A stretch of DNA of 64,000 nucleotides, taken from the NCBI GenBank assembly GCA_937961665.1, contig CALGMO010000065.1, positions 1-64,000 of the forward strand, given 5' to 3'. Position 1 is the stretch's first letter. Each line of letters starts with the position of its first letter. Shown piece by piece: positions 2,416 to 63,004 of the stretch. The notes below the pieces were generated by a model that did no database searches, had not been told where the DNA came from, and saw only the letters and a program-made list of their open reading frames with translations. A program made the position numbers and the translations under genes. This DNA comes from an uncultured Fimbriimonadaceae bacterium (lineage in GTDB: Bacteria; Armatimonadota; Fimbriimonadia; Fimbriimonadales; Fimbriimonadaceae).

Positions 2416-2427
2416 GATGGGATTATG
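2416..2427 (-). promoter_or_regulatory. putative leaderless promoter -10 box of the metH-like gene
   Basis: On the minus strand CATAAT (2427-2422) is followed by 6 nt and then the GTG start at 2415. The spacing matches several other starts in the window. The first base differs from the TANNNT pattern, and no good -35 is visible. Confidence 0.4.
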
Positions 2428-2556
2428 AAACCCGGCATCCTTCCCGTCGGTAAGGGTGCCGGACTTGGACCCATCCCGGTAGATTCGGCGGGAAACAATC
2501 CGGCCCATTGGGCAATCACTTAGTTGTCGGCGGAGAGACGCCGCCCAGCAGAGGCC

Positions 2557-2652
2557 ATGAACTACGAAATCGTCGCCGCAGCAGTCGCCTTGGCAGCCAT
2601 CGCCGGAGCGTGGGGTCTCTACCGCGACTCGATGGCCCAGCGCCGAAGATAG
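2557..2652 (+). CDS. possible 31-aa single-pass membrane peptide
   Basis: Short frame from ATG 2557 to TAG 2652. It begins MNYEIVAAAVALAAIAGAW and ends with a basic tail, RDSMAQRRR. The composition is that of one hydrophobic helix with a positive, probably cytoplasmic C-terminus. A weak purine stretch (AGAGG) lies 5-9 nt upstream. A strong intrinsic terminator on the same strand follows 58 bp later (2710-2760), which suggests that something is transcribed here. No family is recognised. It could be chance coding in a 410-bp gap between divergent genes; comparing synonymous substitution in close relatives would decide. Confidence 0.4.
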   Translation: MNYEIVAAAVALAAIAGAWGLYRDSMAQRRR

Positions 2653-2709
2653 GTTTCCTCCATCCCCAAGCACAACCTCAAACACCCTCCGCCAAACACC
2701 CCTCCCCTA

Positions 2710-2760
2710 GGGCCGCCGCAATCCCCCCACCCCCCCAAAGCCGGCGGCCCGCCTTTTTTT
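2710..2760 (+). terminator. Rho-independent terminator
   Basis: Perfect 9-bp inverted repeat GGGCCGCCG (2710-2718) / CGGCGGCCC (2742-2750), followed by seven T residues at 2754-2760. The loop is long and C-rich. It lies upstream of the ABC transporter gene and would end a plus-strand transcript such as the putative 31-aa peptide mRNA. Confidence 0.65.
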
Positions 2761-2789
2761 GCCCTTCTGGTCCGCGGCCCACGGTTCGG

Positions 2790-2819
2790 TTGCATCGCGG
2801 ACCGAAACGGTTGTAAGTT
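2790..2819 (+). promoter_or_regulatory. promoter of the ABC exporter gene
   Basis: TTGCAT (2790-2795), an 18-bp spacer, then TAAGTT (2814-2819) preceded by G. The start codon GTG follows 5 nt later, which predicts a leaderless or nearly leaderless mRNA. The architecture matches the promoters before the tricorn gene (31401-31430) and the tRNA-Glu gene. Confidence 0.5.
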
Positions 2820-2824
2820 AGGGC

Positions 2825-4684: not shown

Positions 4685-4804
4685 TCCCCCTCCCGCCCTC
4701 CATCCGAGCGGCTCTCCGCCGCCTCGGCGCCCGGCGCGGATAGGTAGACACCTGTTTCGGACCGATCACCATTCGATACTTTTTGCGAAAATCGGGGGTC
4801 CATT

Positions 4805-4847: not shown

Positions 4848-4863
4848 GCTCCTCAGACGGCGC

Positions 4864-4888: not shown

Positions 4889-4978
4889 GTTCGGGCAGGG
4901 CGGGGTGCTCTACCCAGGTTTCTCGAGCGGTTGGACAGGAGGTCCGGCCGCTCCTCGGATTCTTCGCGGTCGGGGGCG

Positions 4979-27690: not shown

Positions 27691-28962
27691 ATGGTCTCCT
27701 GCATCGCAGCGTTGGTCCTTCTGCAGCTGCCGGCCGTCGAGCAGCCGGTCGCCCGGCCGGTCGAACCGGACTTCACGGTTCCGCTGATTCCGTCCATCGA
27801 GCAGAGGCTGGGTGCGTCGCCGCGCCTGGATGGAGAGATCGAGCCCGAGGAGTGGGACGAGTTCGCGGCCTCGGGCGACGCGCAGACTTGGTTCCAGTGG
27901 GAGTCGGGGGGGCTGCACGCGGCCGCGAGGTTGCCGGTCGGCCAGGATCTTCTGGTGTCGCTCGACCTGAGGGGCGATGGATGGCTCGTCGGGTCCGACA
28001 ACCTCGAGATTCGCGTGTCTTGGGACGGCGCGGCGGCGAAGGCCGCTCTGAGGCGCCTGGACGCCACACATCCGGAGGGTCCGGAGTGGGTGGACGCGTC
28101 GGAGCTGCTGCCGTGCCTGTCGGTGGCCGCCAGCGGCGACTCGTCGCAGTGGTCGGTCGAGATGACGCTACAGGATTGGGGCTTGGGTCAGCTGCCCGCG
28201 CGCGAGGGCGAGCGCCTGGCGCTGCGCTTCGACGCGTGCTCGAAGAACCAGGGCGACTACGCGCCCTTTCTGCCGAGGCTGGTCGCGCCGGTCCGGCTGG
28301 TGCTCTCCCGGACGCTGTTCGCTCCGGAGGGGTTTCGGTTCCGGCCCGAGTTCCGTGGCCGCAGCGTGGTGCCCGGCCAGTCGCTCCGCGTGCGCTTCAC
28401 GTTCGAGGGATCGCCTGACCTGGGTTTGACCCGCGCGGAGATGAGGACGGAGGGTCTGGGGCAGGAGGACGCCACGCTCCAGGCGGAGCCTTTCCCGGGC
28501 TTCGACCGCAAGGGCCGGGCGTTCGTGGACTATCCGATCCGCGTCTCGCCGAACGCCGCGACGGGGTACCGGGTCGCTCGCTGCACCCTCCTCCGCCAGG
28601 AGGGGGATCCGATCGTGTGCCAGACGAGCTATCAGATCGCGCCGCTGGTGAGCTTCGAGGCCGTCGTGCCCAAGGGCCTGGTGTCCGAGCAGAGGGCGGT
28701 CAAGGTTCGGGTTCCGGTGTACCTGCGGTCGAACGTTCTGGGCCGCGTGGACGGCGTGTTCGACGCCACGCTGCCCCAAGGATGGACGTCCGAGGCGGGA
28801 CTGGGCAAGCGGTTCATCATCCCGAACTCCCGCGGCAGCGTTCGCAAGGTGTTCGACGTGACGATCCCGGCCGGCGCGCGGGGCGTGTTCCCAGTCCTGC
28901 TGAGGGCCGAGTTCGACCGGGGCAAGAAGGTGGAACAGACGGTGTGGATCACCGTGCTGTAA
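27691..28962 (+). CDS. secreted protein with CBM9-like domain
   Basis: 423 aa from ATG 27691. A hydrophobic signal peptide (MVSCIAALVLLQLPAVEQPVA) directs export. Residues about 25-220 look like a carbohydrate-binding CBM9/DOMON-type domain (PRLDGEIEPEEWDEFAASGDAQTWFQWESGG pattern, then SDNLEIRVSWDG). The remainder appears to be beta-sandwich repeats (VPGQSLRVRFTFEGS; KVRVPVYLRSNVLG) of unknown role. The frame is open upstream to 27493, but that extension is non-family and would overlap the divergent HD-GYP gene. Probably binds extracellular sugars or acts as a surface protein. The next gene is only 9 bp away. Confidence 0.7.
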   Translation: MVSCIAALVLLQLPAVEQPVARPVEPDFTVPLIPSIEQRLGASPRLDGEIEPEEWDEFAASGDAQTWFQWESGGLHAAARLPVGQDLLVSLDLRGDGWLVGSDNLEIRVSWDGAAAKAALRRLDATHPEGPEWVDASELLPCLSVAASGDSSQWSVEMTLQDWGLGQLPAREGERLALRFDACSKNQGDYAPFLPRLVAPVRLVLSRTLFAPEGFRFRPEFRGRSVVPGQSLRVRFTFEGSPDLGLTRAEMRTEGLGQEDATLQAEPFPGFDRKGRAFVDYPIRVSPNAATGYRVARCTLLRQEGDPIVCQTSYQIAPLVSFEAVVPKGLVSEQRAVKVRVPVYLRSNVLGRVDGVFDATLPQGWTSEAGLGKRFIIPNSRGSVRKVFDVTIPAGARGVFPVLLRAEFDRGKKVEQTVWITVL

Positions 28963-28971
28963 GGTAGGGCC

Positions 28972-31387: not shown

Positions 31388-31399
31388 GCGAGGAGTTTA
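31388..31399 (-). promoter_or_regulatory. leaderless promoter -10 of the zinc-ribbon/hisF operon
   Basis: Minus strand: G then TAAACT (31399-31394), 6 nt, then GTG 31387. Transcription would start at or next to the start codon. It lies back-to-back with the tricorn promoter; the two -10 boxes are 25 bp apart. Confidence 0.5.
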
Positions 31400-31400
31400 C

Positions 31401-31430
31401 TTGCGTCCGGGGAAACCGAGGGAGTAAAAC
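31401..31430 (+). promoter_or_regulatory. leaderless promoter of the tricorn gene
   Basis: TTGCGT (31401-31406), an 18-bp spacer, then TAAAAC (31425-31430) preceded by G, then 6 nt and ATG 31437. Same -35 type and spacing as at 2790-2819 and before tRNA-Glu. Confidence 0.55.
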
Positions 31431-31436: not shown

Positions 31437-34400
31437 ATGTTCCGCTCGATGCGTGGTTGGCTGTGCGCGACTCTGGCGCTGACCGCGGCGGTCGCCGCCG
31501 CGCAGCTGGACCAAGCCGCCCCCAAGCCGATCCGAGGCGTGCGCAACCTGGCGCTGAGTCCGGACGGCAGCTCGCTGGCGTTCGTGTACAAGGGCGACGT
31601 GTGGGTCGTTTCCTCGCAGGGAGGGCGAGCCACGCGCCTCACGGGCAACGTGGAGATGGACTCGAACCCGGTGTGGTCCCCCGACGGCAGGTGGATTGCG
31701 TTCGCCTCGAATCGGGACGGTCGAACCGACACGTACCTCGTTCCGGTGGAGGGTGGCGCTCCCCAGAGGCTCACGTGGTCCGGCGTCGGGCCGAGCGCGT
31801 GGACGCCCGACGGCAAGGAGATCCTGGTGTCGCAGAACAGGGAGGACACGTTCCCCGGCCTGTACGCGATCGACGTGAAGACCACCGCCGTGCGGCGGCT
31901 CTACAGGGACTTCGTGGGGATCGGCAGCCCGACCGTGTCGCCCGACGGCAAGCTGGTGGCCTTCAACCGGCGCGGCTTCCCTTGGTACCGTCCGCGCTAT
32001 CAGGGCTCGGCGGCGGCCTCGCTGTGGCTGCTGGACACCTCCACCGGCAAGGCGCGTCCGCTGCGGGAGAACGGGTTCCAGCACCTTTGGCCGCGCTTCG
32101 GGTCCGATGGCAAGACGGTCTACACCGTCACCGTCGGCGAGCTCACGCCCAGCTCGAGCCCGCTGAACCGCCCGATCGGCAAGATCGTGGACAGCCCCGA
32201 GCGCACGCCCAACGTGTACGCCGTGGACCTCAGCGGCCGCGCCAGGAGGCTCACCTCGTTCGTCGGGGGCGCCGTGCGCTCGCTGTCGGCGGCGGCGAAC
32301 GCCCCGTTGCTGGCCTTCGAGTACGAGGGTGACCCCTACACGATGGCCCCGGGCGGACAGCCGACCAAGATCGCGATCTTCGCCAACGAGGACGAACTGA
32401 CGCCCACCACGGAGCGGCTGGTGCTGACCGATGGGGCCTCGAACGTGGCCATCAGCCCAGACGGAGAGCGGATCGCGTTCGTGGCACGGAACGACATCTG
32501 GATAGTGCCGATCGCCAAGGGCAAGGGGCCGAACAAGGACGACGCGACGCAGATCACGGAATGGCCCGGCCTCGACGACGAGCCCGTCTGGCACCCCGAC
32601 GGCAAGAGCCTGTTCTTCGTGAGCGATCGGGAGGGTCCGCAGCGGATCTACCGTGTGAACGTGGAGACGAGGGAGACCTCCGTCTTCTACAAGACCGAGA
32701 GCGACGCCCACGAGCTCAGGCTGACTCCGGACCGAAAGCACCTCGCGTTCTGGGTCTCCGGGGCGGACGGCGGCATCTATTGGATCCCGGTCGGCGGAGG
32801 CCAGGCCAGAAAGCTCGTCGACGACCCCGGGCAGCACAACTGGAACACGGCTTTTTCGTTCTCGCCCGACGGTCGCTTCCTCGCCTACGCGAGGCAGAAG
32901 GGCAACGTGCCCGCGAACCTGTTCGTCGTCGACCTCTCGACGGGCAAGGAGCAGAACGTCACACGGCTCGCGGCGACGCACGGCAACCCGGTTTGGTCCG
33001 CGGATGGGAAGTACCTGTACTTCACCTCTGACCGGGACGGGGACGGGCTCTACCTGCTGCCGCTCACGCTGGAGGACGCGAGGACTCCGGACCTCGAGCT
33101 TCGGTACGCCAAGCCGAAGGAGCAGCCGAAGGTCCAGATCGACTTCGACGACATCCACCTTCGCATCCGCAAGCTCACAGGCCAGCCGGTCGGAGGCGAG
33201 CCGATCGTCGACCGCGAGACGGGCGACCTCTACTTCCGCTCCAACGACGGCGATCTGTGGCGGTGCTCGTACAACGGCGAGAGCGTCTCCAAGGTGACGC
33301 AGGGCGGACGCGTGGGGATGTATGCGTTCTTCGAGTCCGGCGACCGGATCTTGTTCGAGCAAGCCGGCACGCTGAAGATCTTCACCCCCCGGCAGATCCC
33401 GCCGCGCAAGGAGGGCGACAAGGAGAAGCCCGGAGTGCCCGCCGGGATCCAGGACGTTCCGTTCCGGGCCGTTTGGGTTCGCGACATCCGGGGCGAGCAG
33501 CGCGCGGCGTTCTACCAGTTCTGGAGGATGTACAACCGGAACTTCTACGACCCGAACTTCCACGGGCGGGATTGGGTCAAGATCCGGGATCGCTACGCGC
33601 CGCTGCTCGAGTCGGTGGGGCACCGTTCGGAGCTGGCGCTGGTGCTGAACATGATGGTCGGCGAGCTGGAGGCCTCGCACAGCGAGGTCGGGGCTCCGGG
33701 CGGCGGCCCCACGGCGGTTCCGCTGGCTCACCTCGGGTTCGACATCGACTACGGATACAAGGGGCCGGGTCTGAGGGTCGCCTCGGTGCCGAAGGGCGCA
33801 CCGGGCAGCTTCGCCAAGACGCTCCTCAAGCCGGGCGAGTACGTGCTGCAGGTCAACGGCAAGGACGTGTCGAACAACGAGCTGCTGTACCGCGACGTGC
33901 TGGCCGGCGAGGTCGGGCGCGACCTGAGGCTGCTGGTGAACGCCTCCCCGAACAAGTCCGGCGCCCGCGAGGTGGTGTACCGGGCCCTGACCGCGGGCGA
34001 GTACGGCGGCATCCTGTACCGCAACCGGATCGAGGCCCGTAGGAAGTGGGTCGATCAGGCCTCGGGCGGAAAGGTGGCCTACGTGCACATCTCGGGCATG
34101 GGTGGGGGCAACTTCACTCAGTTCAATCGCGAGGTCTGGTCGGAGTCCCTGGGCAAGAAGGCGGTGATCATCGACGTGCGGGACAACGGCGGAGGAAACA
34201 TCAGCGATCGGCTGATCGACATCCTCGAGCGCGTGCCGCACAGCTACTATCGGGACCGCGACGGCGAGACGCGCCCCGCGCCCGACCAGAGCTGGGACCT
34301 TCCCACGGTGGTGCTGCACGCCGAGTCCAGCTTCTCCAACGCCGAGATGTTCCCGTACGCCATGAAGGCCCGCCGGCTGGCCACTCTGGTGGGCATGCCC

Positions 34401-34619
34401 ACTCCCGGCTACGTGATCTGGACGTGGGGCCTGCCGCTGGTCGACGGGACGAGCGCGCGGATGCCCGCCGCCGGAGTGTGGCGGCTGGACGGCACCCCGC
34501 TGGAGAACAACGGCCAGAAGCCGGACATCGAGGTGCAGATCACCACGGAGCAGTACTTCCGCGGAGAGGATCCCCAGCTGGCCAAGGCCGTGGAGGTCCT
34601 GCTAGGCAAGGTGCGCTAG
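31437..34619 (+). CDS. exported tricorn-like protease (beta-propellers, PDZ, S41 peptidase)
   Basis: 1060 aa. Signal peptide (about residues 1-22, GWLCATLALTAAVAAA), then two propeller regions with repeated LALSPDGSSLAFV-type blades, a PDZ-like domain (about 755-850) and the C-terminal serine peptidase domain. The catalytic layout fits archaeal tricorn: Ser747-His748 in EASHSEVG and nucleophile Ser967 in SSFSNAEMF, 219 residues after the histidine as in Thermoplasma tricorn (His746, Ser965). Glu1023 lies in PLENNG near the known Glu1023. It would degrade peptides, and a signal peptide implies action outside the cytoplasm, unlike the classical enzyme. Confidence 0.9.
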   Translation: MFRSMRGWLCATLALTAAVAAAQLDQAAPKPIRGVRNLALSPDGSSLAFVYKGDVWVVSSQGGRATRLTGNVEMDSNPVWSPDGRWIAFASNRDGRTDTYLVPVEGGAPQRLTWSGVGPSAWTPDGKEILVSQNREDTFPGLYAIDVKTTAVRRLYRDFVGIGSPTVSPDGKLVAFNRRGFPWYRPRYQGSAAASLWLLDTSTGKARPLRENGFQHLWPRFGSDGKTVYTVTVGELTPSSSPLNRPIGKIVDSPERTPNVYAVDLSGRARRLTSFVGGAVRSLSAAANAPLLAFEYEGDPYTMAPGGQPTKIAIFANEDELTPTTERLVLTDGASNVAISPDGERIAFVARNDIWIVPIAKGKGPNKDDATQITEWPGLDDEPVWHPDGKSLFFVSDREGPQRIYRVNVETRETSVFYKTESDAHELRLTPDRKHLAFWVSGADGGIYWIPVGGGQARKLVDDPGQHNWNTAFSFSPDGRFLAYARQKGNVPANLFVVDLSTGKEQNVTRLAATHGNPVWSADGKYLYFTSDRDGDGLYLLPLTLEDARTPDLELRYAKPKEQPKVQIDFDDIHLRIRKLTGQPVGGEPIVDRETGDLYFRSNDGDLWRCSYNGESVSKVTQGGRVGMYAFFESGDRILFEQAGTLKIFTPRQIPPRKEGDKEKPGVPAGIQDVPFRAVWVRDIRGEQRAAFYQFWRMYNRNFYDPNFHGRDWVKIRDRYAPLLESVGHRSELALVLNMMVGELEASHSEVGAPGGGPTAVPLAHLGFDIDYGYKGPGLRVASVPKGAPGSFAKTLLKPGEYVLQVNGKDVSNNELLYRDVLAGEVGRDLRLLVNASPNKSGAREVVYRALTAGEYGGILYRNRIEARRKWVDQASGGKVAYVHISGMGGGNFTQFNREVWSESLGKKAVIIDVRDNGGGNISDRLIDILERVPHSYYRDRDGETRPAPDQSWDLPTVVLHAESSFSNAEMFPYAMKARRLATLVGMPTPGYVIWTWGLPLVDGTSARMPAAGVWRLDGTPLENNGQKPDIEVQITTEQYFRGEDPQLAKAVEVLLGKVR

Positions 34620-43874: not shown

Positions 43875-44741
43875 TCAGTAGGCGAAGCCTGCCGTGCCGG
43901 GCGCGACGTCCCACGGGCAGGTGCCGGCCGGAGCGGGCTTGTTGCTCGTCTTGACCTTCGGGAAGTAGCCCGAGAAGAGGCCGGAGACGGTGTCGTTCAC
44001 GTTGCCGAGCTTGCCCATGATGACCGCCTTGGCGAACGAGGCGTGCCCGTCGGTGAAGGCGAAGTTCGCGCCGCCGTTGAACCCGCCCCGGGTCGTGATC
44101 GCGCTCCGGTTGTTCATGGCGCCGAACAGCTCGTAGCCCCAACCGCCGGTGCTGATGTTCCAGAACCACTTGGTCTCGCCGTTCTCATCCTGGCAGGACG
44201 AGTAGGTCCAAGCGTACTGCGACGGGCCGAGCATCGCGATCTCCGCGGGGACGTCGATCGACGTCGCGCTGGTCGCTCCCGGGCTCAGAGGCCCGAAGTC
44301 GGCGCGCGAGATCATGTGGTTCAGCGCGTAGGTGACGCGGTACCGGCGGGTGAGGTCGGTGTCGGCCGCGTTCAGCTGCCCGGGGTACAGGTAGCCGCCG
44401 GGGCCGTAAAGGATGTCGCTGTTGGTCGCCGTGGAGAACAAGCCCTTGGACTTCACGTACGGCATCAGGATGTCGCTCCAGAACGGCCGCTCGAAGAAGT
44501 CGCCGGGGTTCGGGTAGCTCGGCGAGCTCCAGCGTCCGGCGTACGGGAACGACAACAGCGTGTCGTCGTTGTCCGACGCGTACATCAGGGCTCCGAGGGC
44601 GAGCTGCTTGACGTTGGACAGGTCCTGGGTGCGCTTCGCCGAGAGCTTGGCCTGGGCGAAGACCGGGAACAGGATGGCCGCGAGGATCGCGATGATCGCG
44701 ATCACGACGAGGAGCTCGATGAGGGTGAACGCACGTTTCAT
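43875..44741 (-). CDS. type II/IV-like pseudopilin, prepilin-type N-terminus (cassette 1)
   Basis: 288 aa. Begins [18 protein letters not shown]: short basic leader, then the class III signal with Phe+1 and Glu+5; the -1 residue is Ala instead of Gly. The helix leads to the FPVFAQAK sequence common in Armatimonadota. C-terminal GGANFAFTDGHASF is the prepilin-associated H-X9-DG region, but here the expected first His is Phe. A GGAGA ribosome site overlaps the stop of the upstream regulator gene, so the two are co-transcribed. Likely an extracytoplasmic filament or secretion pseudopilus subunit. Confidence 0.88.
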   Translation of the reverse strand: MKRAFTLIELLVVIAIIAILAAILFPVFAQAKLSAKRTQDLSNVKQLALGALMYASDNDDTLLSFPYAGRWSSPSYPNPGDFFERPFWSDILMPYVKSKGLFSTATNSDILYGPGGYLYPGQLNAADTDLTRRYRVTYALNHMISRADFGPLSPGATSATSIDVPAEIAMLGPSQYAWTYSSCQDENGETKWFWNISTGGWGYELFGAMNNRSAITTRGGFNGGANFAFTDGHASFAKAVIMGKLGNVNDTVSGLFSGYFPKVKTSNKPAPAGTCPWDVAPGTAGFAY

Positions 44742-44757
44742 GGTTTCGTCTTTTCTC

Positions 44758-45858
44758 CTATGAACTAGGGGCCACGGTCGTCGTGCCCCGCAGAACGAAT
44801 TCGGGTTCCAGGATGTGGCGCCGGCTCTCGGTCGCGCCGAGGCTGAGCGCCTCCAGCAGGATGTCGGCGGCCAGGCAGGCCATCTGGTCGAGCGGCTGCC
44901 GGACGGTCGTCATGGGCGGGTACGACAGCCGAATGAAGTCCGGATCGTCGTAGGCGACGATCGAGATGTCCTCGGGGCACCTCAGCCCGAGGCGATGCAC
45001 GATGCCGAGGAGCGAGAAGGCAATCTTCGGTCCCGCGGCGAACACGGCCGTCGGCCTGTCGCGGTCCAGCAGCACCGACTCCAGCAGGGCCTCGGTGCCG
45101 GCGTCGATGCCCCAAGCCTCGTCCATGATCACAACCCGGTTCTCGGGCAGAACGATGTCGCGCGCCCTCAGGGCGATCCGGAAGCCGCGCAGGCGTTCGC
45201 GAGTGTTCGAGTCGGACGGGCATCCTCCGAGGAACATCAGCTTGCGATGGCCGAGATCGGCGAGGTGGTTCGCGGCCATCAACCCCCCCAACAGGTTGTC
45301 GCTGTCTACGAACGACAGGCCGGGGTAGTTCCACGAGCAACCCAGCAGCACCACAGGCCGCCCGCCGAGCCGAAGGTCCGCGAACATCGGCAGAGAGGTC
45401 TCCGGCGGGTCGATGACGATGTAGCCTGCGGGTGGGGCCTCGCCGGAGTCCCCCAGGGGCGCGCTCTGGAACGGCCGCAGGTCGATCCGTACGGACTTCT
45501 CCTGGAGCCTCTCCAGTAGCTTCCAGTAAAGAGTGCCGAAGTACACGTCGCCGACTGCCCCGACGGAGTCGACGGGCACCACGACCCTGCAGACCTGGCC
45601 CTCGACGATGCCCGGGCTGCTGGCGACGAACGTTCCCCGACCCTTCTCGCGGACCAGCCAGCCGTCCTGCACGAGCGCCAGGATCGACTTGTTCGCGGTC
45701 ATGCGGCTCACGCCGAACCGATCGGCGATCTCGACCTCGCTCGGCAGCCGGTCTCCGGGGCGAAGCGTGCCCGACCGGATCTGATCGAGGATCGCATCCC
45801 GGATCTGAACGTGGACCGGCTTCGAGCCGTCCTTCGAGGAGAGCTTCGGAACGTTCAC
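44758..45858 (-). CDS. GntR-type regulator with LacI-like sensor domain (cassette 1)
   Basis: 366 aa. N-terminal winged helix (about 14-80; ILDQIRSGTLRPGDRLPSEVEIADRFGVSRMTANKSILAL) of the GntR family, joined to a periplasmic-binding-protein-like domain (about 88-360) with LacI signatures MAANHLADLGHRKLMFLGG and RCPEDISIVAYDDPD. This is the AraR-like architecture, which usually senses a sugar. Start GTG 45858. Two TGTCTAGACA-type palindromes and a TATAAT lie upstream, so autoregulation is likely. The pseudopilin gene follows after 16 bp, so the regulator probably controls its own operon. Confidence 0.88.
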   Translation of the reverse strand: MNVPKLSSKDGSKPVHVQIRDAILDQIRSGTLRPGDRLPSEVEIADRFGVSRMTANKSILALVQDGWLVREKGRGTFVASSPGIVEGQVCRVVVPVDSVGAVGDVYFGTLYWKLLERLQEKSVRIDLRPFQSAPLGDSGEAPPAGYIVIDPPETSLPMFADLRLGGRPVVLLGCSWNYPGLSFVDSDNLLGGLMAANHLADLGHRKLMFLGGCPSDSNTRERLRGFRIALRARDIVLPENRVVIMDEAWGIDAGTEALLESVLLDRDRPTAVFAAGPKIAFSLLGIVHRLGLRCPEDISIVAYDDPDFIRLSYPPMTTVRQPLDQMACLAADILLEALSLGATESRRHILEPEFVLRGTTTVAPSS

Positions 45859-47277: not shown

Positions 47278-47341
47278 GGGTCCAAGTTACCCAGAGGAGG
47301 CCGGGAGCGGCACCATGCGCCTGGATGTGAACGCGTATACT
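47278..47341. promoter_or_regulatory. divergent leaderless promoters of the UroD-family and GH2-like genes
   Basis: Minus strand: G-TAACTT (47289-47284), 6 nt, ATG 47277. Plus strand: G-TATACT (47336-47341), 6 nt, ATG 47348. Neither has a canonical -35. No copy of the TGTCTAGACA operator is seen between them. Confidence 0.5.
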
Positions 47342-47347: not shown

Positions 47348-50300
47348 ATGAGGACTCTTCCGCCACGGTTCCTTCCGTGCCTTCTGCCGGTCGTTCTCGC
47401 GGGTTCGGCTCTCACGCTTCAGGCTCCTCCCTTGGCGTGGGTGGAGGGTGAGTCCTTCGCCGAGGCGTCTGTGAAGCCGATGGTGTCCGGCTGGGGCAAC
47501 CGCGCCGTGCTGTCCAGAGGGGAGTGGGCGCAGATCTCCACCGACGACCGGAACGCTCCTCCGGCGACGATCCGGTACGAGTTCGACGCTCCGGCCGCCG
47601 GCCGGAACGAGATCTGGGCGAGGATCGGCTACGAATTCGCCCGCTCGCCGTTCCGCTGGAGGCTGGATGGAGGGACGTGGACCGACGTCGCGCCCGAGGT
47701 GCTGACCACCGACCTGATGCCCATGGACCGTTGGGTCGAGGTGGCTTGGCTGAAGCTGGGAGAAGCGGAACTCGGCGCCGGGCGGCACCGAATCGAGTTC
47801 GAGGTTCGGCAGAGGAAGAACGACCGAGGCGAGAACAGTGGTCTGCTGTTCGCGCTGGACGCGCTCGCGGTGACCCCCGGGCCTTTCCGGCCGAACGGTC
47901 CTCGGAAGCCGGGCGAGGCCACGCCGAGCGAGGAGGATCGCAAGGCCGCCGAGACCGTGTTCGAGGTCGCCGCCGCGAAGCCGGGCGAGCGTTCCACGGT
48001 TCGCCTGGAGGGGCTTTGGGAGATCGCGCGGGCGGACGAGCAGCTGCCGGGGCCCGTCGCGGAGCCGATGCGGGACCTGCCAACGGAGGCCTTCTGGACG
48101 GCGATTCCGGTTCCGAGCGACCGGAACGTGTCGCGCCCCGATCTGATGTTCGCCCATCGCCTTTGGTACCGGACGCGGTTCCGGCTGCCGGCCGGCTATG
48201 CCGGCGGCTCGGTCCTGCTGCGCTTCCCGCTCAACAACTTGAACACCACAGTGGTGGTGAACGGCCAGCTCTGCGGCTTCCAGAAGGACCCGCTGGTTCC
48301 GTTCCTGGTGGACGCGACCAAGGCGGCACGGCCCGGGGTGAACGAGCTGATCGTCGGGATCCGGGACGCTTGGTACGGCTATTCCGCCAACCCGAACGAT
48401 CCGATGAAGCTGCGGAGGAAGTTCAACCTGCCCCTCGACGTGGTGAAGGGAGGCTTCCAAGACCTCGCTTACCCGATCTGGAACTCCTTCTATTCGGGCA
48501 TTCTGGAGACCCCGGTGCTCACTTTGACCGGGCCTGCGTACGCGGAGGATGTCTTCGTCAAGCCGAAGGTTTCCGAAGGCGTCGTGGAGGCGGAGGTGAC
48601 CGTGCGCGGCGGTCCGGCCCAGGTGCGCTGCGACGTTGTGGATCCCATCTCCGGGCAGATTCTGGCGCCGTTGGGAACCGTTCCCACGGGCGAGGGCGGA
48701 GTGGCCGTCGTGTCGGGTCGCTGGGAGAACCCCAGGCTGTGGTGGCCCGACGACCCGCAGATGGTCGTGCTGCGCACCACGGTGATGCAGAACGGCCAGC
48801 CCGTGGACCGGGTCGACACTGAGTTCGGCTACCGCGAGTGGACCGTGCAGGGTGTCCACTGGTACCTCAACGGGGTGCGCTGGAAGGGCTGGGCGGAGCT
48901 CACGCAGGGTGAGACGCCCGAGGAGTGGCTGGCCAACTATCGCAGGTCTGGCCAGAGGTTCATGCGCCTCGCCGGCATCGCCCAGAACGGAAGCTACCGA
49001 TGGAAGGGGATGCCGATCGAGGAGGCCCTGCGATGGTTCGACCGCAACGGCGTCGTGGTGCGCCGCAGCGGCATCCTCGACGGCGAGGTCATCGGATACA
49101 TGCCGGTGGAGCAGGACCCGGACCTGAGAAAGCTGTACGGTTCGGAGATCAAGGTCGAGCTGCTGCGGAACTGGCAGGACCAGATGGCCGCGCAGGTGCG
49201 GGCGGAGCGGAACCACCCGTCGATCCACGTGTGGTCGCTGGAGAACGAGTTCCTCTACATCAACACGCTCAACCTGTGGGGCCATCTGATGGATGAGTTC
49301 GAGCGCGAGGTGCTTCGCGCCGGAGAAGCCGTCCGCAAGCTCGATCCAACCCGGCTCTGGATGGTGGACGGTGGCGGAGCGGCCAAGAACAACTCGTTCC
49401 CGGTGCACGGGGACCACTACGTGTTCACGAACAACCCGAGCGACTATCCTGCGCTCGCCTTCTCCGCCTTCCCCAGGGGTGGCGGCCGAGGCCGCTGGGA
49501 GTGGGACCAGAAGCGCCCGCGATACCTGGGCGAGGACTTCTACGCCGCCGGAATCAACCCCGCCGACTACGCTTGGATCCAGGGGGAGGAGGCGTTCAAC
49601 GGCAAGGCGGCAGCGCAGAAGGGCATCGCACTCATTCAGCGGATGCTTACGGAGGGCTATCGGTGGGGAGACCACTACGCCTTCTGGCACTTCTGGGTCG
49701 GGCACGAGGGCGAGCAGTACGGCAAGTACGTCTCGAACGCGGAGAGGGCCGTCTTCTGCAGGGAGATGGACTGGTCGTTCGGCTCGGGACAGAAGGTCGC
49801 TCGGACGCTCCGCGTGTTCAACGATACGCGCCATGCGGATCCGATGGTGCTGGAGACGGAGCTCTCGGTGGGCGGCCGAACCTTGGAGCGGACGACGAGG
49901 GAGCTGAAGGTGGCTCCGGGTTCCCACGAGAGGCTGAAGGTCGAGTGGGCCGTCCCGCAGGTCTCGGCGCGAACCGAGGGTGCCTGGCTCCTGCGCCTGA
50001 AGGTCGGCGGCAAAACGGTGTTCGAGGATCGGAAGCCGCTGGCCGTGATGCCCTCCTCCTCGCTGCTGGATCCCAAGCTCCGGTCCGCGCTGCCCAAGGG
50101 TTCGCTGGCGGTCTGGGATCCGTCCGGCAGGATCCTCGGGTGGGTTCGGGCTCACGGACTCGACCCGATCGTGGCGAACGGTCCGAAGGTGCCCGCCGGC
50201 GTGCGGGTGCTGGTCGTCGGCCCCAACGCTCTGGACGAGGCCGCCAGCCTGCGCTCCGACCTCGCGGCGCTGGCCCTGACGGGAGTGCGCGTCGTGGTCC

Positions 50301-52434: not shown

Positions 52435-52626
52435 CTACCGGGGGCCTTCGCCTGCCGGCGCGGAGGCCGGCTTGCGGACCTCCTTCTCCCCGCCCGGCGA
52501 AACGTAGGCGAAGTTGCCGACCCGCTTGTCCTCCGGCACCGAAGCCCGCTCCGGGTCCTCCCCGCAACCCGGCGTTCCGAGCGCGAGGAGAAGGAGGATC
52601 GCAAGGGCCACAGTGGATCGCAGCAT
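52435..52626 (-). CDS. small putative lipoprotein of pseudopilin cassette 2
   Basis: 63 aa. Signal [21 protein letters not shown] with Cys21 in a loose lipobox (TPGC), then a charged tail (GEDPERASVPEDKRVGNFAYVSPGGEKEV). The ATG overlaps the pseudopilin stop (TGATG), so translation is coupled. Same position and layout as the lipoprotein at 43479-43622, although the tails are not clearly similar. Not a known family. Confidence 0.65.
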   Translation of the reverse strand: MLRSTVALAILLLLALGTPGCGEDPERASVPEDKRVGNFAYVSPGGEKEVRKPASAPAGEGPR

Positions 52627-53414
52627 CAGTACTTCCCCGAGATGGAGCAGGGTTCGGACGACAGCTTGGCCGGGTAGAAGCCGTCGACGATCCGGTCCGG
52701 GAGCGCCGGGTGGTCCGAAGGCAGGCGCATCATCTTTCCGAACTTCGAGTGGCCATCCGAGTAGGTGATGTTGTTGCCATCGCCGTGGTAGACCTTGCCG
52801 TAGTAGCCCCAGTCCGGAACGACGCCGTGCGGGAAGGCCCGGTGGCCCTGATCGCCCGTGTCGCCGGGGAACGGCACGCAGACCCGCCAGGAGTACTGGT
52901 ATTGGCCGTCCATGTAGAAGGCCACCTCGGCGGGTTCGCCGATCCACGAGGAGGTCTTGGCGGTGGCGAACAGAACCTCATTGATCGTGTAGTCCGCGGC
53001 TTGGAGGAGGGGCCTCTTCTGCGGATCGCCGCACACCCACACGGAGTTGCTGGCCACGTAGTTCAGGTCGGAGTTGCTCGGGCAGTCGAACAGGCCCCCG
53101 TTCTTGATGTAGGGGTGGAGCAGTACGCCGTAGTGGTTCTGCTGGCAGGGCTGGCCGAGCCAGTCCATGCAGTCGGTCCAGTAGCCGGTTTCCGACTTGG
53201 GGCAGCCGCCCGGCCAGGTCTGTTCGAAGAACGTGTCGTCGTAGTCCGACGCGTACATCAGAGTCGCCAGACCGAGCTGCTTGGTGTTCGAGAGGCACTG
53301 CGTCTTCTTGGCTGCGGCCTTGGCCTGGGCGAACACGGGGAACAGGATCGCCGCCAGGATGGCGATGATCGCGATGACGACCAGAAGCTCGATGAGTGTG
53401 AAAGCTCGTTTCAT
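52626..53414 (-). CDS. type II/IV-like pseudopilin with H-X9-DG motif (cassette 2)
   Basis: 262 aa. Its N-terminal 32 residues match the cassette 1 pseudopilin, from [16 protein letters not shown] through FPVFAQAK, then the two diverge. Rich in cysteine ([41 protein letters not shown]), suggesting disulfides in an oxidising compartment. The C-terminal H-X9-DG motif is intact ([17 protein letters not shown]). It follows the GntR/LacI-like regulator by 12 bp and is coupled to the small lipoprotein. No strong ribosome site. Predicted extracytoplasmic pseudopilus subunit. Confidence 0.88.
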
Positions 53415-53426
53415 GTTCGATGTGGT

Positions 53427-54518
53427 TCAAGGCTGGGTCGGGGGAGCGGAGGTGGATGCGCGGACCACCAGCTCCGGTGGGAAGAGCCGGCGCCCTCCGG
53501 CGGCGGGAACCGCAGAGCCGGCCACCATCTCGGCGACGCACGAGGCCATCTCCTCGAAGGGCTGGCGGACCGTGGTGAGCGGCGGCAGGGAGAGCGCGAG
53601 ATAGGGGGGATCGTCGAAGGCGACGATGGACAGGTCTTCGGGCACTCGCAGACCCAGATCCGCTGCGGTCCGGAGCGCCTGCATGGCGAGGCGGGGTCCG
53701 GCGGCGAACAGCGCCGTCGGCCGGTCGTTCGATGCGAGCCCGCTCCGGAGCCGCGTCTCCGTATCCGGAGAGCTCGCGAAAGAGTCGGTTGGGAACATGA
53801 AGGAAAGGCGGGGGTCGGCGAGGAGGCCGGCGGCGATGCATGCGGCCTGCCAGCCCCGCTCCCGGTCGATGGAGTTGGACTCCTCCGGGTAGCCGCCGAC
53901 GAAGGCCACTCGCGCGTGGCCCAGGGAGCTCAGGTGGCGAATCGCCAGGGCCGCGCCGAGCAGGTTGTCTGCGTCCACGGAGGACACCCCGTAGCCTTGG
54001 ACGTCGGAGGCGATGGCGATGGTGGGCACTCCCCTTCGAGCGACCTCGAGAAGATCGTCGTAGGCGTAGCGCGGCGTGGCGATGGCGATGAGCGGCGCGG
54101 CGCCCAGCCCGAGCATCCACTCGACCGTATCCTTCGGCGGAGGGGCGGCGACCTGCAGCGGCAGGCCGCGCGCGGCGAGGTGTGAGCGCAGCTGCCAGTA
54201 GATGGTCTGGAAGAACTCGTCCTTGAGATACATCTCCGGCTCGGCGAGCACCAGCACCGGGTTCGGCGATGGGCGGCGGGCTTGGTCGCTGACGAAGGTG
54301 CCCGAGTGGCGGCGTCGGACCACCCAGCCGTCCTCGGCGAGCGACACGACGGCCCGGTTGGCGGTCATGCGGCTGACGCCGAAGCGCTCGGCCAGGTCCA
54401 CCTCGTTGGGAAGGCGGTCTCCGGGCGCGAGGCGGCCGGAACGGATCTCAGCGAGGATTCTCGCCTTGATCTCCAGGTACCGGGGCACCGTCGCGATCCG
54501 TTCCGGCTTCTGCCTCAT
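53427..54518 (-). CDS. GntR-type regulator with LacI-like sensor domain (cassette 2)
   Basis: 363 aa, clear paralogue of the regulator at 44758-45858. Winged helix at about 12-78 (PGDRLPNEVDLAERFGVSRMTANRAVVSLAEDGWVV, almost the same recognition helix as the paralogue) and LacI-like domain (AIRHLSSLGHARVAFVGGYPEESNS; RVPEDLSIVAFDDPPYLAL; PPLTTVRQPFEEM). ATG 54518 has GAGG upstream. The shared GVSRMTAN recognition segment agrees with related operators upstream (54531-54542 and 54600-54618). Probably ligand-responsive repressor of its own pseudopilin operon; ligand unknown. Confidence 0.88.
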   Translation of the reverse strand: MRQKPERIATVPRYLEIKARILAEIRSGRLAPGDRLPNEVDLAERFGVSRMTANRAVVSLAEDGWVVRRRHSGTFVSDQARRPSPNPVLVLAEPEMYLKDEFFQTIYWQLRSHLAARGLPLQVAAPPPKDTVEWMLGLGAAPLIAIATPRYAYDDLLEVARRGVPTIAIASDVQGYGVSSVDADNLLGAALAIRHLSSLGHARVAFVGGYPEESNSIDRERGWQAACIAAGLLADPRLSFMFPTDSFASSPDTETRLRSGLASNDRPTALFAAGPRLAMQALRTAADLGLRVPEDLSIVAFDDPPYLALSLPPLTTVRQPFEEMASCVAEMVAGSAVPAAGGRRLFPPELVVRASTSAPPTQP

Positions 54519-56519: not shown

Positions 56520-56525
56520 TATCTT
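56520..56525 (+). promoter_or_regulatory. leaderless promoter -10 of the DUF389 gene
   Basis: G-TATCTT, 6 nt, then GTG 56532. An overlapping GTATTGT lies at 56514-56520. No -35 match. Confidence 0.45.
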
Positions 56526-56531: not shown

Positions 56532-57569
56532 GTGTCCCAGCAGTTGGCGGCAGAGGGGATCGATCGCGCCGGGATCCGCCTCCAGATCTACCGAGGAGCG
56601 AGGCTCGACTCCAACTACCTCGTCATGAACGCGCTGGCCACGATCGTGGCGGCCTACGGGCTTCTGTCCGACAGCACGGCCGTCGTCATCGGAGCGATGC
56701 TCCTGGCCATGCTGCTGGGCCCGATTCTGGGGCTGGCGCTGGGTCTGGTCGACGGCAACACGCGCCTGCTGGTCCGCTCGGCCGTCGCCGAGGTGGCCGG
56801 TGCCGGGCTGGTGCTTGCCGTCGGCTTCGCGATCGGCTTGATGAACCGCGATCTGCCGATCACCCGAGAGATCCTCGTTCGCACCGAGCCCAACCTGCTC
56901 GATCTGGGAATCGCGCTTGCAGGCGGCGCGGCGGCCGCCTACGCGATTTGCGTGCCCAAGGTCAGCGCCGGCATGGTCGGTGTGGCCATCGCCACCGCTC
57001 TCGCTCCGCCGCTCACGGCGTGCGGCATCTGCCTGTCGCGGGGGATGCTCGCCGAGGCTGCCGGAGCGTTCCTCCTGTTCTTCACGAATCTGGTCGCCAT
57101 CCAGTTCGCATCCTCGTTGGTTCTCGCCGCCTTCGGGCTGCACGCGTTCTCGAAGGAGAGGTCGAGAGAGCCGGGCTTCCAACGCCGGATCGCGGTGGAC
57201 GCCGCGCTGCTCGCGGCGCTCGTCGTGTTCCTGTCAGACCGGCTGGGACACTCGATCTCCGTGCGACGGGCGGAGGACACGGCCCGGAGGACCCTCGAAT
57301 CCGTAGCCGCGCGCATCCCCGGGGCTCGGGTCATCGAGGTCAACCTCACCGAGCGGGAGGACCAACGCAACCTGGTGGCCGTCGTGCGGACCCCGCGGGC
57401 TTTTCGGCCGCCGGAGGTTGCTCAGGCCGAGTCTGCCCTCCGCTCCGCGCTGGGTGGGGAGGTCACCCTGCGGGTGCGCTCCGTGCTCACGGAAGAGGCC
57501 ACAAGCCAAGGCGTTCTTTCGGCGCAGCCCTACGCGTCCGATCCATCCTCGACGGAAGATTGGCGCTGA
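56532..57569 (+). CDS. DUF389 family polytopic membrane protein
   Basis: 345 aa from GTG 56532. Two clusters of hydrophobic helices: family core DSNYLVMNALATIVAAYGLLSDSTAVVIGAMLLAMLLGPILG (about residues 27-70) and GMVGVAIATALAPPLTACGICL near 150-170, then a cytosolic or periplasmic domain after LGHSISVRRAEDTARRTLES. Function of DUF389 is unknown. The GTG start is supported by the promoter spacing; five extra codons to a TTG at 56517 are possible. tRNA-Glu lies just downstream on the other strand. Confidence 0.87.
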   Translation: MSQQLAAEGIDRAGIRLQIYRGARLDSNYLVMNALATIVAAYGLLSDSTAVVIGAMLLAMLLGPILGLALGLVDGNTRLLVRSAVAEVAGAGLVLAVGFAIGLMNRDLPITREILVRTEPNLLDLGIALAGGAAAAYAICVPKVSAGMVGVAIATALAPPLTACGICLSRGMLAEAAGAFLLFFTNLVAIQFASSLVLAAFGLHAFSKERSREPGFQRRIAVDAALLAALVVFLSDRLGHSISVRRAEDTARRTLESVAARIPGARVIEVNLTEREDQRNLVAVVRTPRAFRPPEVAQAESALRSALGGEVTLRVRSVLTEEATSQGVLSAQPYASDPSSTEDWR

Positions 57570-57616: not shown

Positions 57617-57693
57617 TGGTACCCCGGACGGGATTCGAACCCGCGATCTTCGCCGTGAGAGGGCGATGTCCTGAACCGCTAGACGACCGGGGC
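57617..57693 (-). tRNA. tRNA-Glu (anticodon CTC)
   Basis: 77 nt on the minus strand. Acceptor GCCCCGG pairs with CCGGGGT; D arm GTCT/GGAC; anticodon stem TCGCC/GGCGA with loop CTCTCAC (anticodon CTC); T arm GCGGG-TTCGAAT-CCCGT. The 3' CCA is encoded. Reads GAG codons, suited to this GC-rich genome. Confidence 0.95.
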
Positions 57694-60438: not shown

Positions 60439-60444
60439 TATTCT
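60439..60444 (+). promoter_or_regulatory. leaderless promoter -10 of nadE
   Basis: G-TATTCT, 6 nt, ATG 60451. No good -35 was found. Confidence 0.5.
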
Positions 60445-60450: not shown

Positions 60451-61314
60451 ATGGCACTGAGGGTGGTGAAGGCCGCGCCGTTCGATCCGAACGACGACTC
60501 TTGCCTGCGTGTGGACGCGCCCCTGGTCGTTCGCTGGCTGGTGGAATTCCTTCGGCAGGAGTGCGTCCGTCGCCGGGGGGTGACCAGGGCGGTGCTCGGC
60601 CTGAGCGGCGGCGTCGACTCGGCGGTTGTGGCGTACCTCTGCGCGCGGGCCTTCGGCCCGGAGAACACGCACGCCTTCCGGATGCCCTACAAGATCTCCT
60701 CCTCGGAGAGCCTGGAGCACGCCCAGCTCGTCATCGATGATCTCGGCCTGCAGGCGAGGACGATCGACATCACCCCCATGGTGGACGGCTACCTCTCGAA
60801 CTTCGAGCCGGACGCCTCCCCGGCGAGGGTCGGGAACGTCTGCGCGCGCAGCCGCATGATCGTGCTGTTCGATCAAGCCGCCAAGCTCGGCGCCCTGCCG
60901 ATCGGCACCGGCAACAAGAGCGAGCGGCTATTCGGCTACTACACCTGGCACGCGGACGACTCGCCGCCGATCAACCCCATCGGCGACCTGTTCAAGACGC
61001 AGGTCTGGCAGATCGCGAGAGAGCTCGGCGTTCCGAGCGTTATCGTGGACAAACCGGCGAGCGCGGACCTGATCCAAGGCCAGACCGACGAGGGCGACTT
61101 CGGCATCCGCTACCGGGACGCCGACCGGATCCTCCACCACCTCACGCAGGGCTACTCGCCGGCGAAGCTGAAGCAGATGGGCTTCGACCCAGGCCAAGTG
61201 GATCTGGTGTTCGCGAAGGTCGAGTCCACGCACTGGAAGCGGCGGCTTCCGACGACCGCGATGCTCAGCAAGTCCGCGATCGGCGAGTTCTACCTGCGGC
61301 CGGTGGACTACTGA
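60451..61314 (+). CDS. nadE: ammonia-dependent NAD+ synthetase
   Basis: 287 aa. Converts nicotinic acid adenine dinucleotide to NAD+ with ATP and ammonia. The P-loop of the N-type ATP pyrophosphatase family is VLGLSGGVDSAVVAYL near residue 50; later GTGNKSERLFGYYTWHADDSPPINPIGDLFKT and KPASADLIQGQTDEGDFGIRY are diagnostic. No glutaminase domain is attached, so free ammonia is used. Start ATG 60451 is supported by the promoter spacing; the in-frame upstream ATG-like extension to 60433 would include the -10. Confidence 0.95.
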   Translation: MALRVVKAAPFDPNDDSCLRVDAPLVVRWLVEFLRQECVRRRGVTRAVLGLSGGVDSAVVAYLCARAFGPENTHAFRMPYKISSSESLEHAQLVIDDLGLQARTIDITPMVDGYLSNFEPDASPARVGNVCARSRMIVLFDQAAKLGALPIGTGNKSERLFGYYTWHADDSPPINPIGDLFKTQVWQIARELGVPSVIVDKPASADLIQGQTDEGDFGIRYRDADRILHHLTQGYSPAKLKQMGFDPGQVDLVFAKVESTHWKRRLPTTAMLSKSAIGEFYLRPVDY

Positions 61315-61484
61315 CCTCGGCGCCGGGCGCAGGGGGCGACCCAGAGCGCGGGTTCGTGCCGCTGGCCTCGGGCCGCTCCGCGGAGCCGGGGGCGTCCGAT
61401 CCGGCCTCGCGCGGCCAGAAGGGCGAAGGGAACGGCGGCGGCCGTCGCCATCCAGAGCAGACGGAGGGGTTTCGGGCTGGGCAT
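61308..61484 (-). CDS. possible small membrane protein
   Basis: 58 aa from ATG 61484. One possible helix LLWMATAAAVPFALLAA, then an Arg-rich tail (RGRIGRPRLRGAARGQRHEP). GAGG lies 8 nt before the ATG. The 3' end overlaps the nadE stop by 7 nt on the opposite strand. Composition could simply reflect GC bias; I give it low weight. Confidence 0.3.
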   Translation of the reverse strand: MPSPKPLRLLWMATAAAVPFALLAARGRIGRPRLRGAARGQRHEPALWVAPCARRRGQ

Positions 61485-61534
61485 CGTCGTCGGCCTCAAA
61501 CCAGATTTTCGGCAGGAGGCCGCCCGAACCGGAG

Positions 61535-61807
61535 TCAACCGGACTCGATCCGGAAATCCGGCCAGGAAACGTGCTCGTAGGATTCGGCCGCCAGGACGGA
61601 ATCCACCCGGCCCGGTCCGGCCTTCAGCTCCCCCAGGAACGACTCCAGCTTGGCGGGGTCGTCGTGGCACGCCAGGCCGCGCACCGCCCCGTCGGGGGAG
61701 TTCCGGACCGAGCCGCGCACCCCCAGACGCCGGGCGAGCCTCAGCACGTACCAGCGGAAACCGACTCCTTGGACGGCGCCGGTGACGGTGAACGAGCGCG
61801 TCGGCAT
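61535..61807 (-). CDS. acyP: acylphosphatase
   Basis: 90 aa, the normal length. Hydrolyses acyl phosphates such as 1,3-bisphosphoglycerate or carbamoyl phosphate. The active site is intact: Arg18 in GAVQGVGFRWYV and Asn36 in GSVRNSPDGAV. ATG 61807 is preceded by TAGACT at 6-nt spacing. Divergent from the ATP-grasp gene with closely interleaved promoters. Confidence 0.95.
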   Translation of the reverse strand: MPTRSFTVTGAVQGVGFRWYVLRLARRLGVRGSVRNSPDGAVRGLACHDDPAKLESFLGELKAGPGRVDSVLAAESYEHVSWPDFRIESG

Positions 61808-61813
61808 GGCTGG

Positions 61814-61843
61814 AGTCTACACCGCGCGGAGCGGGAGTAGAAT
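61814..61843. promoter_or_regulatory. interleaved divergent promoters of the acylphosphatase and ATP-grasp genes
   Basis: Minus strand: G-TAGACT (61819-61814), 6 nt, ATG 61807. Plus strand: G-TAGAAT (61838-61843), 9 nt, ATG 61853. The two -10 boxes are 18 bp apart, so each occupies the other's -35 position; the promoters should compete for polymerase. Confidence 0.5.
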
Positions 61844-61852
61844 CGAGCCCGC

Positions 61853-63004
61853 ATGCCCGTCGAGCAGAAACCGAGAGCCCTCGTCATGCACCCTATCGAC
61901 TGGCTCGGGGTGGCCCGCCTGCCGGGGTTGCTGGCCGAGGCCGGGTTCCGCGTGGCCTCGCTGTGCGACCCGAACAGCCTTCTGGCGAAGACGAGGCACA
62001 ACGAGCGGGTTTTCCCGATCGACTCTCGGGACGGGAACCGCGCCCTGAGGAGCCTGTCGGCGGCCTTTGTGGAGTGGCCGTGCGACCTGATCCTGCCGGG
62101 AGACGACGGCACGGTGCGGCTGCTGCAGGACGCCCTCGTTCTGATGCGCGAGGGCCGGGCGCAGGGCGCGCCGCGCGGTCTGCAGGAGGCCCTGGCCCGA
62201 TCCCTTGGCGATCCCTCTGGGTTCGCGGCGTTGCGCAGCAAGATGGCGTTGGGGGATCTGGTGCGCCAGTTGGGACTCCCCATCCCCGAGCGGCGGCGCG
62301 TCCTGGCCGTTTCGGACGCCTTGGCGTTCGCGGAGGAGCACGGGTACCCGGTGCTGCTGAAGAGCGAGCGGTCCGTGGCAGGCCGCGGGGTGCGGGTCTG
62401 CACCGACGAGGCCTCGTTGGCCGCCGCGGCCTTCGAACTCCTCCCCCAGTTCGCCGGGCGGCAGGAGGGAACGGTGTTCGCCGAGCGCTACGTCGAGGGG
62501 AGGCTGAGCGTGGGTCAGTTCGTCGCTTGGCAGGGCCGCGTCGTGGGCTCCAGTTCCGCTGAGCTGACGGTGACGGATCCACCGGGCGGACCGACTACGG
62601 TGATGACGTGCATCGAGAACCCCGGCTTGGAACAGATGGTGCGGAGGATCGTGGAGAGGATCGGCGCGACGGGCCTGGGGAGCGTACAGGCCATCGTGGA
62701 CAGGGATGGCGTGCCTTGGTTCGTGGAGGCAAACCCGCGGTTCGTGCCGCCCATGGCGCCGAGCCGCCGGGCAGGTTTCCACGTCGGCAGACTGTTGCGG
62801 TCGGCTTTGGAGGGCACGACCCCCGAGCCCTGGTCGTGGCCCGTCGGCTCCGCCTACGCGCTCTTCCCGCAGGAGGTTCTGCGCGATCCCGAGAGCGAGT
62901 GGCTGGAGAAGGCGATCCACGACGTCCCGGAAGACGACCCGCCGCTGGTGCAAGCTTATTGGGACTACGTTCGCAGGGAGAGGGAGCGACGTGCGTCTCG
63001 CTGA
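61853..63004 (+). CDS. ATP-grasp family ligase-like protein
   Basis: 383 aa. N-terminal nucleotide-binding-like fold (ALVMHPIDWLGVARLPGLLAEAGFRVASLCD), then an ATP-grasp core with LRSKMALGDLVRQLGLPIPERR, YPVLLKSERSVAGRGVRVC and the metal-binding PWFVEANPRFVPPM. The layout resembles carbamoyl phosphate synthetase-like and peptide-ligase ATP-grasp proteins that join a carboxylate to an amine. Substrate is unknown. The GNAT gene overlaps its last 14 nt, so the pair probably acts together, for example in making or modifying a small peptide or amino-acid conjugate. That role is inference. Confidence 0.82.
   Translation: MPVEQKPRALVMHPIDWLGVARLPGLLAEAGFRVASLCDPNSLLAKTRHNERVFPIDSRDGNRALRSLSAAFVEWPCDLILPGDDGTVRLLQDALVLMREGRAQGAPRGLQEALARSLGDPSGFAALRSKMALGDLVRQLGLPIPERRRVLAVSDALAFAEEHGYPVLLKSERSVAGRGVRVCTDEASLAAAAFELLPQFAGRQEGTVFAERYVEGRLSVGQFVAWQGRVVGSSSAELTVTDPPGGPTTVMTCIENPGLEQMVRRIVERIGATGLGSVQAIVDRDGVPWFVEANPRFVPPMAPSRRAGFHVGRLLRSALEGTTPEPWSWPVGSAYALFPQEVLRDPESEWLEKAIHDVPEDDPPLVQAYWDYVRRERERRASR

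Follow-up and report, generated by a model that had tools for sequence, protein, structure and literature searches.

The closest described systems are those of Deinococcus-Thermus. In Deinococcus radiodurans, the hexamer TANNNT typically lies 6–7 base pairs (bp) before the open reading frame (ORF), and this box was tested by mutation in a study that included a scan of species from the whole bacterial domain (Zhong et al. 2025, PMC12340547). As described in the same article, the 5' untranslated region is absent or very short in this group, GGAG occurs as an alternative signal and an added -35 element raises transcription. TANNNT leaderless signals have also been reported in 207 of 953 bacterial genomes; in the so-called TA-led genes, which occur in Actinobacteria and other bacteria alongside Shine-Dalgarno genes, the first T of TANNNT lies about 12 bp before the start (Zheng et al. 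2011, PMC3160421). The program GeneMarkS-2, as quoted in PMC9581028, predicted 21.6% of bacterial species as users of leaderless transcription, with promoter-type and Shine-Dalgarno upstream signals within one genome. The present study deals with the same layout, i.e. a -10-like box some 6–7 nucleotides (nt) before the start codon, in an uncultured Fimbriimonadaceae bacterium of the phylum Armatimonadota, starting from a stretch of 64,000 nucleotides (positions 1–64000 of contig 65, CALGMO010000065.1), referred to as the window. The position of TANNNT, the coexistence with Shine-Dalgarno-type signals and the presence of both kinds of signal in one genome are shared with the systems mentioned above. 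The box of Deinococcus-Thermus has been tested by mutation and expression (PMC12340547), whereas that of the Armatimonadota, belonging to another phylum, is known from sequence alone.

It is very probable that the boxes are the -10 elements of leaderless sigma-70 promoters, which would place the start of RNA polymerase at, or a few bases from, the start codon. The genome (2.88 Mb, 142 contigs, 95% complete) was sampled independently of the window over 904,728 bp, i.e. about one third of it, and the gene caller used covered 92% of this sample. A gene was taken as a head if it had a divergent neighbour or lay at least 50 nt behind a same-strand gene, and as close behind if that distance was at most 20 nt; d denotes the number of nucleotides between the box end and the start codon, and a gene was scored as box-bearing if a box was found at any of the candidate starts around the best one. 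Dinucleotide shuffles (100 in the final test, 20 and 10 in earlier runs) and a flank expectation derived from distances 12–44 served as controls. Counting boxes by distance against shuffles, the check proposed by the initial annotation that had listed eleven boxes in the window, revealed the peak it foresaw: TANNNT at d=6–7 precedes 51 of the 383 heads outside the window, the shuffles giving a mean of 6.7 and the flank predicting 11.5. Distances of 5, 6, 7 and 8 nt are represented by 8, 26, 25 and 10 genes, respectively; the peak at 6 nt thus exists, but the spacing of exactly 6 nt claimed originally has to be widened to 6–7 nt, since the two distances are nearly equal. For divergent heads, the count is 35/235 against 4.3 (shuffles) and 7.3 (flank), and strict TANNNT at the same distances gives 37/236 against 5.5 in 20 shuffles, an excess of about 13%. 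Concerning the window itself, TANNNT stands at 6 nt before 5 of its 17 divergent heads (mean of 20 shuffles 0.1), and none of the nine genes lying at least 50 nt behind a same-strand gene has it at 6–7 nt. Both strands of the window together contain 49 GTANNNT and 102 TANNNT; seven of the former are followed by ATG or GTG after 6 nt, the gaps of 3, 4, 5, 7, 8, 9, 10 and 11 nt yielding 1, 1, 1, 0, 1, 4, 1 and 1.

Motif learning on 236 divergent heads arrived at G-G-T-A-N-A-(A/C)-T at a d of mostly 5–9, and learning seeded with AGGAGG on the same heads ended on the A-N-N-A-T part of the box in the same place; with the 205 close-behind genes, the AGGAGG seed yielded GGAG. The mixture weights of these models were dropped as a measure of the leaderless fraction, the shuffled data also giving high values (0.56–0.93). 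When a scoring matrix was applied instead, a score of at least 7 at d=5–9 was reached by 64/236 divergent heads against about 19 per 5-nt bin (d=15–44), and a score of at least 5 by 110/236 against about 41, so that the box excess amounts to about 19–29% of divergent heads, a figure to be taken as approximate because the matrix was derived from these very heads. The -10, roughly GGTANAAT, holds most of the information, while the -35 is weak. The initial annotation had described the motif as GTANNNT. A G indeed precedes the box at 10 of its 11 sites (all but 2415), and nine of the eleven obey the full pattern, the exceptions being 31437 (TAAAAC) and 2415 (CATAAT). Elsewhere the G is a preference, its frequency directly before the box being 0.74 for boxes near starts as compared with 0.54 for TANNNT far from them, and the strict rule was therefore abandoned. 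A G at position -2 of the box is likewise more frequent near starts (0.68 against 0.52 at far sites); this position would correspond to promoter position -14, where the extended -10 element carries G.

The base preceding the start codon, which lies outside the scoring matrix, points to the place where transcription would begin. At sites with d=6, it is C in 0.88 of the cases (n=51), as compared with 0.38 at heads without a box (n=280), 0.44 at close-behind genes (n=221) and 0.43 at all candidate starts (n=2,870). Since the usual initiator of bacterial promoters is pyrimidine-purine at -1/+1, the +1 probably coincides with the start codon. Pyrimidines at -1 were also compared between strict TANNNT at d=5–7 and far sites, the enrichment being clear for the own heads (0.83, n=59, vs 0.54, p 6e-5) and for four genomes of the same family (0.75, n=44, vs 0.53, p 0.008); in the 12 other families of the phylum sampled (see below) it was not significant (0.61, n=57, vs 0.51, p 0.17). 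Of 153 genes that bear a box and do not lie close behind a neighbour (145 of them outside the window), 116 start with ATG, 30 with GTG and 7 with TTG, ATG and GTG thus making up 146/153; among 747 best starts taken for comparison, there are 446 ATG, 223 GTG and 78 TTG.

We infer from these features all three components of the proposed mechanism, i.e. sigma-70 recognition, the +1 at the start codon and leaderless translation. The boxes would be the -10 part of sigma-70-type housekeeping promoters, from which RNA polymerase would begin at the start codon or a few bases from it, giving leaderless transcripts whose 5'-terminal AUG or GUG would be recognised by ribosomes without a Shine-Dalgarno site. 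Operon-internal genes, as well as heads without a box, would rely on Shine-Dalgarno sites or other leaders. The pattern usual for the 3' end of 16S rRNA, with CCTCC, occurs once (a candidate 16S 3' end). That genes with leaders carry operators or Shine-Dalgarno sites, as had been noted for the window, was borne out in part: a Shine-Dalgarno signal precedes eno (AAGGAGG) and, at a distance of about 14 nt, one pseudopilin gene (AGGAG), whereas none is present in the last 20 nt before the second pseudopilin gene and mraZ—the latter judged at the start picked by the caller.

The layout is conserved as a genome-wide peak in the same family and strongly before nadE, being thin gene by gene elsewhere. 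In the window, the nadE box TATTCT (60439..60444, + strand) lies 6 nt from the ATG at 60451, the gene being 95% identical to its counterpart in Armatimonadetes UBA8783, 86% to that in Fimbriimonadales SKW193 and 73% to that in a Fimbriimonas metagenome-assembled genome (MAG), which places the lineage within the Armatimonadota close to Fimbriimonadales. Among the nadE start regions of 33 of the 34 named Armatimonadota loci (all but L092), TANNNT is found at 5–8 nt in 18 and at 4–10 nt in 25, the remaining 8 being without it within the latter range; it should be noted that some of these loci are almost identical to one another. Beyond the box, the upstream DNA was judged by eye as not alignable between most loci. 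In the 23 nadE orthologue pairs obtained (26 named loci offered), a box at d=5–8 is present in 15 of the 18 copies whose neighbour is divergent or further away, against 1 of the 5 that follow closely on a same-strand gene (p of about 0.017 in a one-sided exact test, calculated by hand). The acylphosphatase gene behaves similarly, since it is divergent and has a box in locus L065, whereas in L097, L098, L101 and L137, where the preceding DNA seems by eye to be the end of nadE, the box is missing. Such a pattern is the behaviour of a promoter. In four Herpetosiphon and Gemmatimonadota loci, nadE has no box (0/4), a weak result with the start 24 codons off in two of them. Co-occurrence in orthologues (odds ratio 8.7) was dropped as a general proof, nadE dominating it with 23 of the 92 pairs.

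The preference for heads over close-behind genes, the C at -1 and the conservation before nadE thus support the reading of the boxes as promoters. The same TANNNT might instead be an AT-rich ribosome-binding or translation-enhancing signal inside a normal 5' leader, with no promoter involved, and its distance from the start, about that of a ribosome-binding site, would suit such a role. Close-behind genes indeed keep a smaller yet real peak (11/209 at d=6–7 against 1.6 in shuffles and 2.5 from the flank), and in these genes a model seeded with TANNNT fits about as well as one seeded with AGGAGG (151.7 vs 154.5, TANNNT-seeded shuffles giving 64–73), which indicates that both signals occur there. 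Yet a translation signal should be used equally inside operons, where the excess is smaller (score of at least 7 at d=5–9 in 19/205 close-behind genes against about 6, and of at least 5 in 35/205 against about 19, as compared with the divergent heads given above); the close-behind copies of nadE mostly lack the box, and the box has the sequence of a -10 element. This explanation is accordingly regarded as improbable. Internal promoters can account for the peak in close-behind genes, and the contrast with heads is not absolute. Besides this peak and the similar fit of the two seeds, several other observations weigh against leaderless sigma-70 promoters. The -35 element, sought as a TTGACA-like sequence 16–18 nt upstream of the -10, is weak; among the 69 own sites, TTG occurs at this spacing in 8, as compared with 2 at a control offset, and among 51 sites of the same-family genomes in 0, as compared with 1. 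The C at -1 declines to 0.57, 0.44 and 0.48 at d=7, 8 and 9, respectively, and transcripts at these distances may therefore carry a few extra bases. The pyrimidine at -1 falls short of significance in the named Armatimonadota loci (0.81, n=36, vs 0.62, p 0.052) and is not significantly enriched at the own close-behind genes (p 0.34). Among orthologue pairs other than nadE, the latter subtracted by hand, sharing of the layout is sparse (3/10 pairs with a box in the own member, 8/59 pairs without one there); the available homologues of the genes at 2825, 28972 and 31437 (all at most 43% identical) are without a box, and among 18 distinct homologues of the gene at 56532, the box is at the nearest start in 4, at another start in 4 and lacking in 10.

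The boxes could also be true -10 elements of promoters with short leaders, the real start codons being located further downstream. The start positions are computational calls, and in a check on E. coli (L225) the caller recovered 39 of the 42 listed 3' ends, with the best start exact in 33 of these 39 and the annotated start among the candidates in 38. Misplaced starts are nonetheless hard to reconcile with N-termini that align from residue 1 with homologues (many nadE loci, the acylphosphatase of L065 and the protein starting at 47348), and both the C at -1 and the preference for ATG favour the assigned starts; this possibility therefore seems about as remote as a translation signal, if not slightly more so. 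Chance or base composition, finally, may explain single examples, given the number of TANNNT in the window—28972 may be one of them—and among starts within genes there is a rhythm of 3 bases that is highest just at d=6. The rate at this internal maximum (17/13,391, or 0.13%) is, however, far below that of candidate starts at heads (27/1,511, or 1.8%), the shuffles did not exceed 16 in 100 runs against the 51 observed, and no peak emerged when the same pipeline was applied to the pooled 12 other families (43 observed, 45.0 expected). As a general explanation, chance was ruled out by the shuffles and deserves hardly any credence.

With regard to the taxonomic extent of these putative leaderless promoters, the genome set comprised 151 genomes, with 36 families other than f1, the own family of the source genome, which the labels of the nadE relatives suggest to be Fimbriimonadaceae or a close family. 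Samples of 100 kb from each of four f1 genomes gave TANNNT at d=6–7 before 39/209 heads (shuffles 12.5, flank 14.0), whereas 12 genomes, one from each of 12 other Armatimonadota families, gave 43/576 when pooled (shuffles 35.4, flank 45.0), i.e. no peak. Samples of this size are too small for judging any single family, although the genome G013 (family f13), with 8 heads against about 3.5 and 5/25 close-behind genes, may have the trait. The 34 named Armatimonadota loci, one of them labelled just 'bacterium', have the box at 50/160 heads (shuffles 9.5, flank 10.8) and, after the removal of nadE, at 34/135 (against 9.8), while the Chloroflexota loci (9 of 12 used) do not show a peak (5/57; shuffles 6.0, flank 6.4). 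Six of the 80 loci, labelled Gammaproteobacteria or just 'bacterium', were excluded, and the genes of one locus group are not independent, since the loci share orthologues. The 100-kb controls gave 5/48 against 1.2 for a Deinococcus deserti plasmid and 10/57 against 6.3 (p 0.11) for E. coli. In a table of Shine-Dalgarno and anti-Shine-Dalgarno classes in PMC10783764, Fimbriimonadia are given with 25% and Chthonomonadetes with 70%.

It could tentatively be proposed, with somewhat less than even confidence, that within the Armatimonadota leaderless transcription would be a trait of one branch, made up of the source family and related Fimbriimonadales, that most other branches lack. A strict limit to one family is weakened by four nadE loci labelled Chthonomonas, which also have TANNNT near the start (6, 9, 10 and 12 nt before it); their MAG labels may be old. 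If the one-branch reading is true, a genome-wide mode of initiation was gained or lost within the phylum, an event that could be placed on the tree and linked to changes in the sigma factor, ribosome or initiation factors. As a separate observation, the Gemmatimonadota loci (L105–L143; 27 of 28 used) exhibit the same TANNNT peak at 6–7 nt (19/141 heads; shuffles 3.6, flank 4.5), which persists with nadE removed (15/118 against 3.8); their pyrimidine frequency at -1 is 0.50 (n=16) against 0.64, and a literature search for this phylum found no paper with leaderless in the title or abstract.

Other phyla are already known to use this mechanism; what is new is its probable presence in the Armatimonadota family f1 and its absence from the pooled sample of other families. 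No description of leaderless transcription in Armatimonadota was found in the open-access literature, although one may exist elsewhere; the main text of Zheng et al. (2011, PMC3160421) is without the word Armatimonad, its table containing an 'Other Bacteria' row. If at least one fifth of the divergent heads of the family are leaderless, predictions of start codons and promoters that assume a leader would misplace many genes, and expression designs taken from leadered bacteria may fail in this family. The contrast between f1 and the pooled other Armatimonadota would offer a compact setting for studying shifts between leadered and leaderless initiation.

All eleven boxes of the initial annotation were found with the coordinates, strands and spacing given there, nine of them at 6 nt and those of 2825 and 61853 at 5 and 9 nt, respectively. 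In three divergent pairs, 31387/31437, 47277/47348 and 61807/61853, the start codons are only 49, 70 and 45 nt apart, with a box on each side, so that the intergenic DNA would be little more than two back-to-back promoters. In the first pair, TAAAAC (31425..31430, + strand), which is not a strict TANNNT, lies 6 nt from the ATG at 31437 of a tricorn-like protease gene (Pfam), and TAAACT (31394..31399, - strand) lies 6 nt from the GTG at 31387 of a 71-residue ORF without a Pfam match and of unassigned family. The second pair consists of TAACTT (47284..47289, - strand), 6 nt from the ATG at 47277, and of TATACT (47336..47341, + strand), 6 nt from the ATG at 47348. In place of the former, the same-genus locus L229 has TAAGTT, likewise at 6 nt, and no box was seen in L230, also of the same genus; the latter box is kept in both L229 (6 nt) and L230 (7 nt). 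In the third pair, TAGACT (61814..61819, - strand) is located 6 nt from the ATG at 61807 of the acylphosphatase gene and TAGAAT (61838..61843, + strand) 9 nt from the ATG at 61853 of an ATP-grasp gene, each being present in L065 as the same box with the same spacing. The DUF389 gene (Pfam) has TATCTT (56520..56525, + strand) 6 nt before its GTG at 56532; L064 and L235 have TAAGCT instead, at a distance of 7 nt, and the more distant homologues are mixed. The box TAAGTT (2814..2819, + strand) stands 5 nt before the GTG at 2825 of an ABC transporter gene (Pfam).

The weak members of the list are 28972, 31387 and 2415. The box TAAGGT (28960..28965, + strand), 6 nt from the ATG at 28972, shares bases with the stop codon of the preceding gene, and its own gene lies 9 nt behind that same-strand gene, making it a doubtful head and a doubtful promoter. 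CATAAT (2422..2427, - strand) is found 6 nt from the GTG at 2415 of a homocysteine methyltransferase/pterin-binding gene, the start of which is uncertain, the caller having picked 2508. The same sequence, CATAAT, precedes the ATG of the L077 homologue, again at 6 nt; the C in the first box position may thus be tolerated.

As for other features of the window, the tricorn-like protease gene (31437–34619) has 14 matches in its own genome and 36 in one genome of the same family. Two copies of a prepilin-like gene are present in the segments 43875–45858 and 52626–54518, each adjoining a gene with an N-terminus that by eye resembles that of a GntR-type regulator, and the palindromic TGTCTAGACA is located upstream of the first of these regulator-like genes. 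A tRNA-Glu (CTC) is encoded at 57617–57693 on the - strand.

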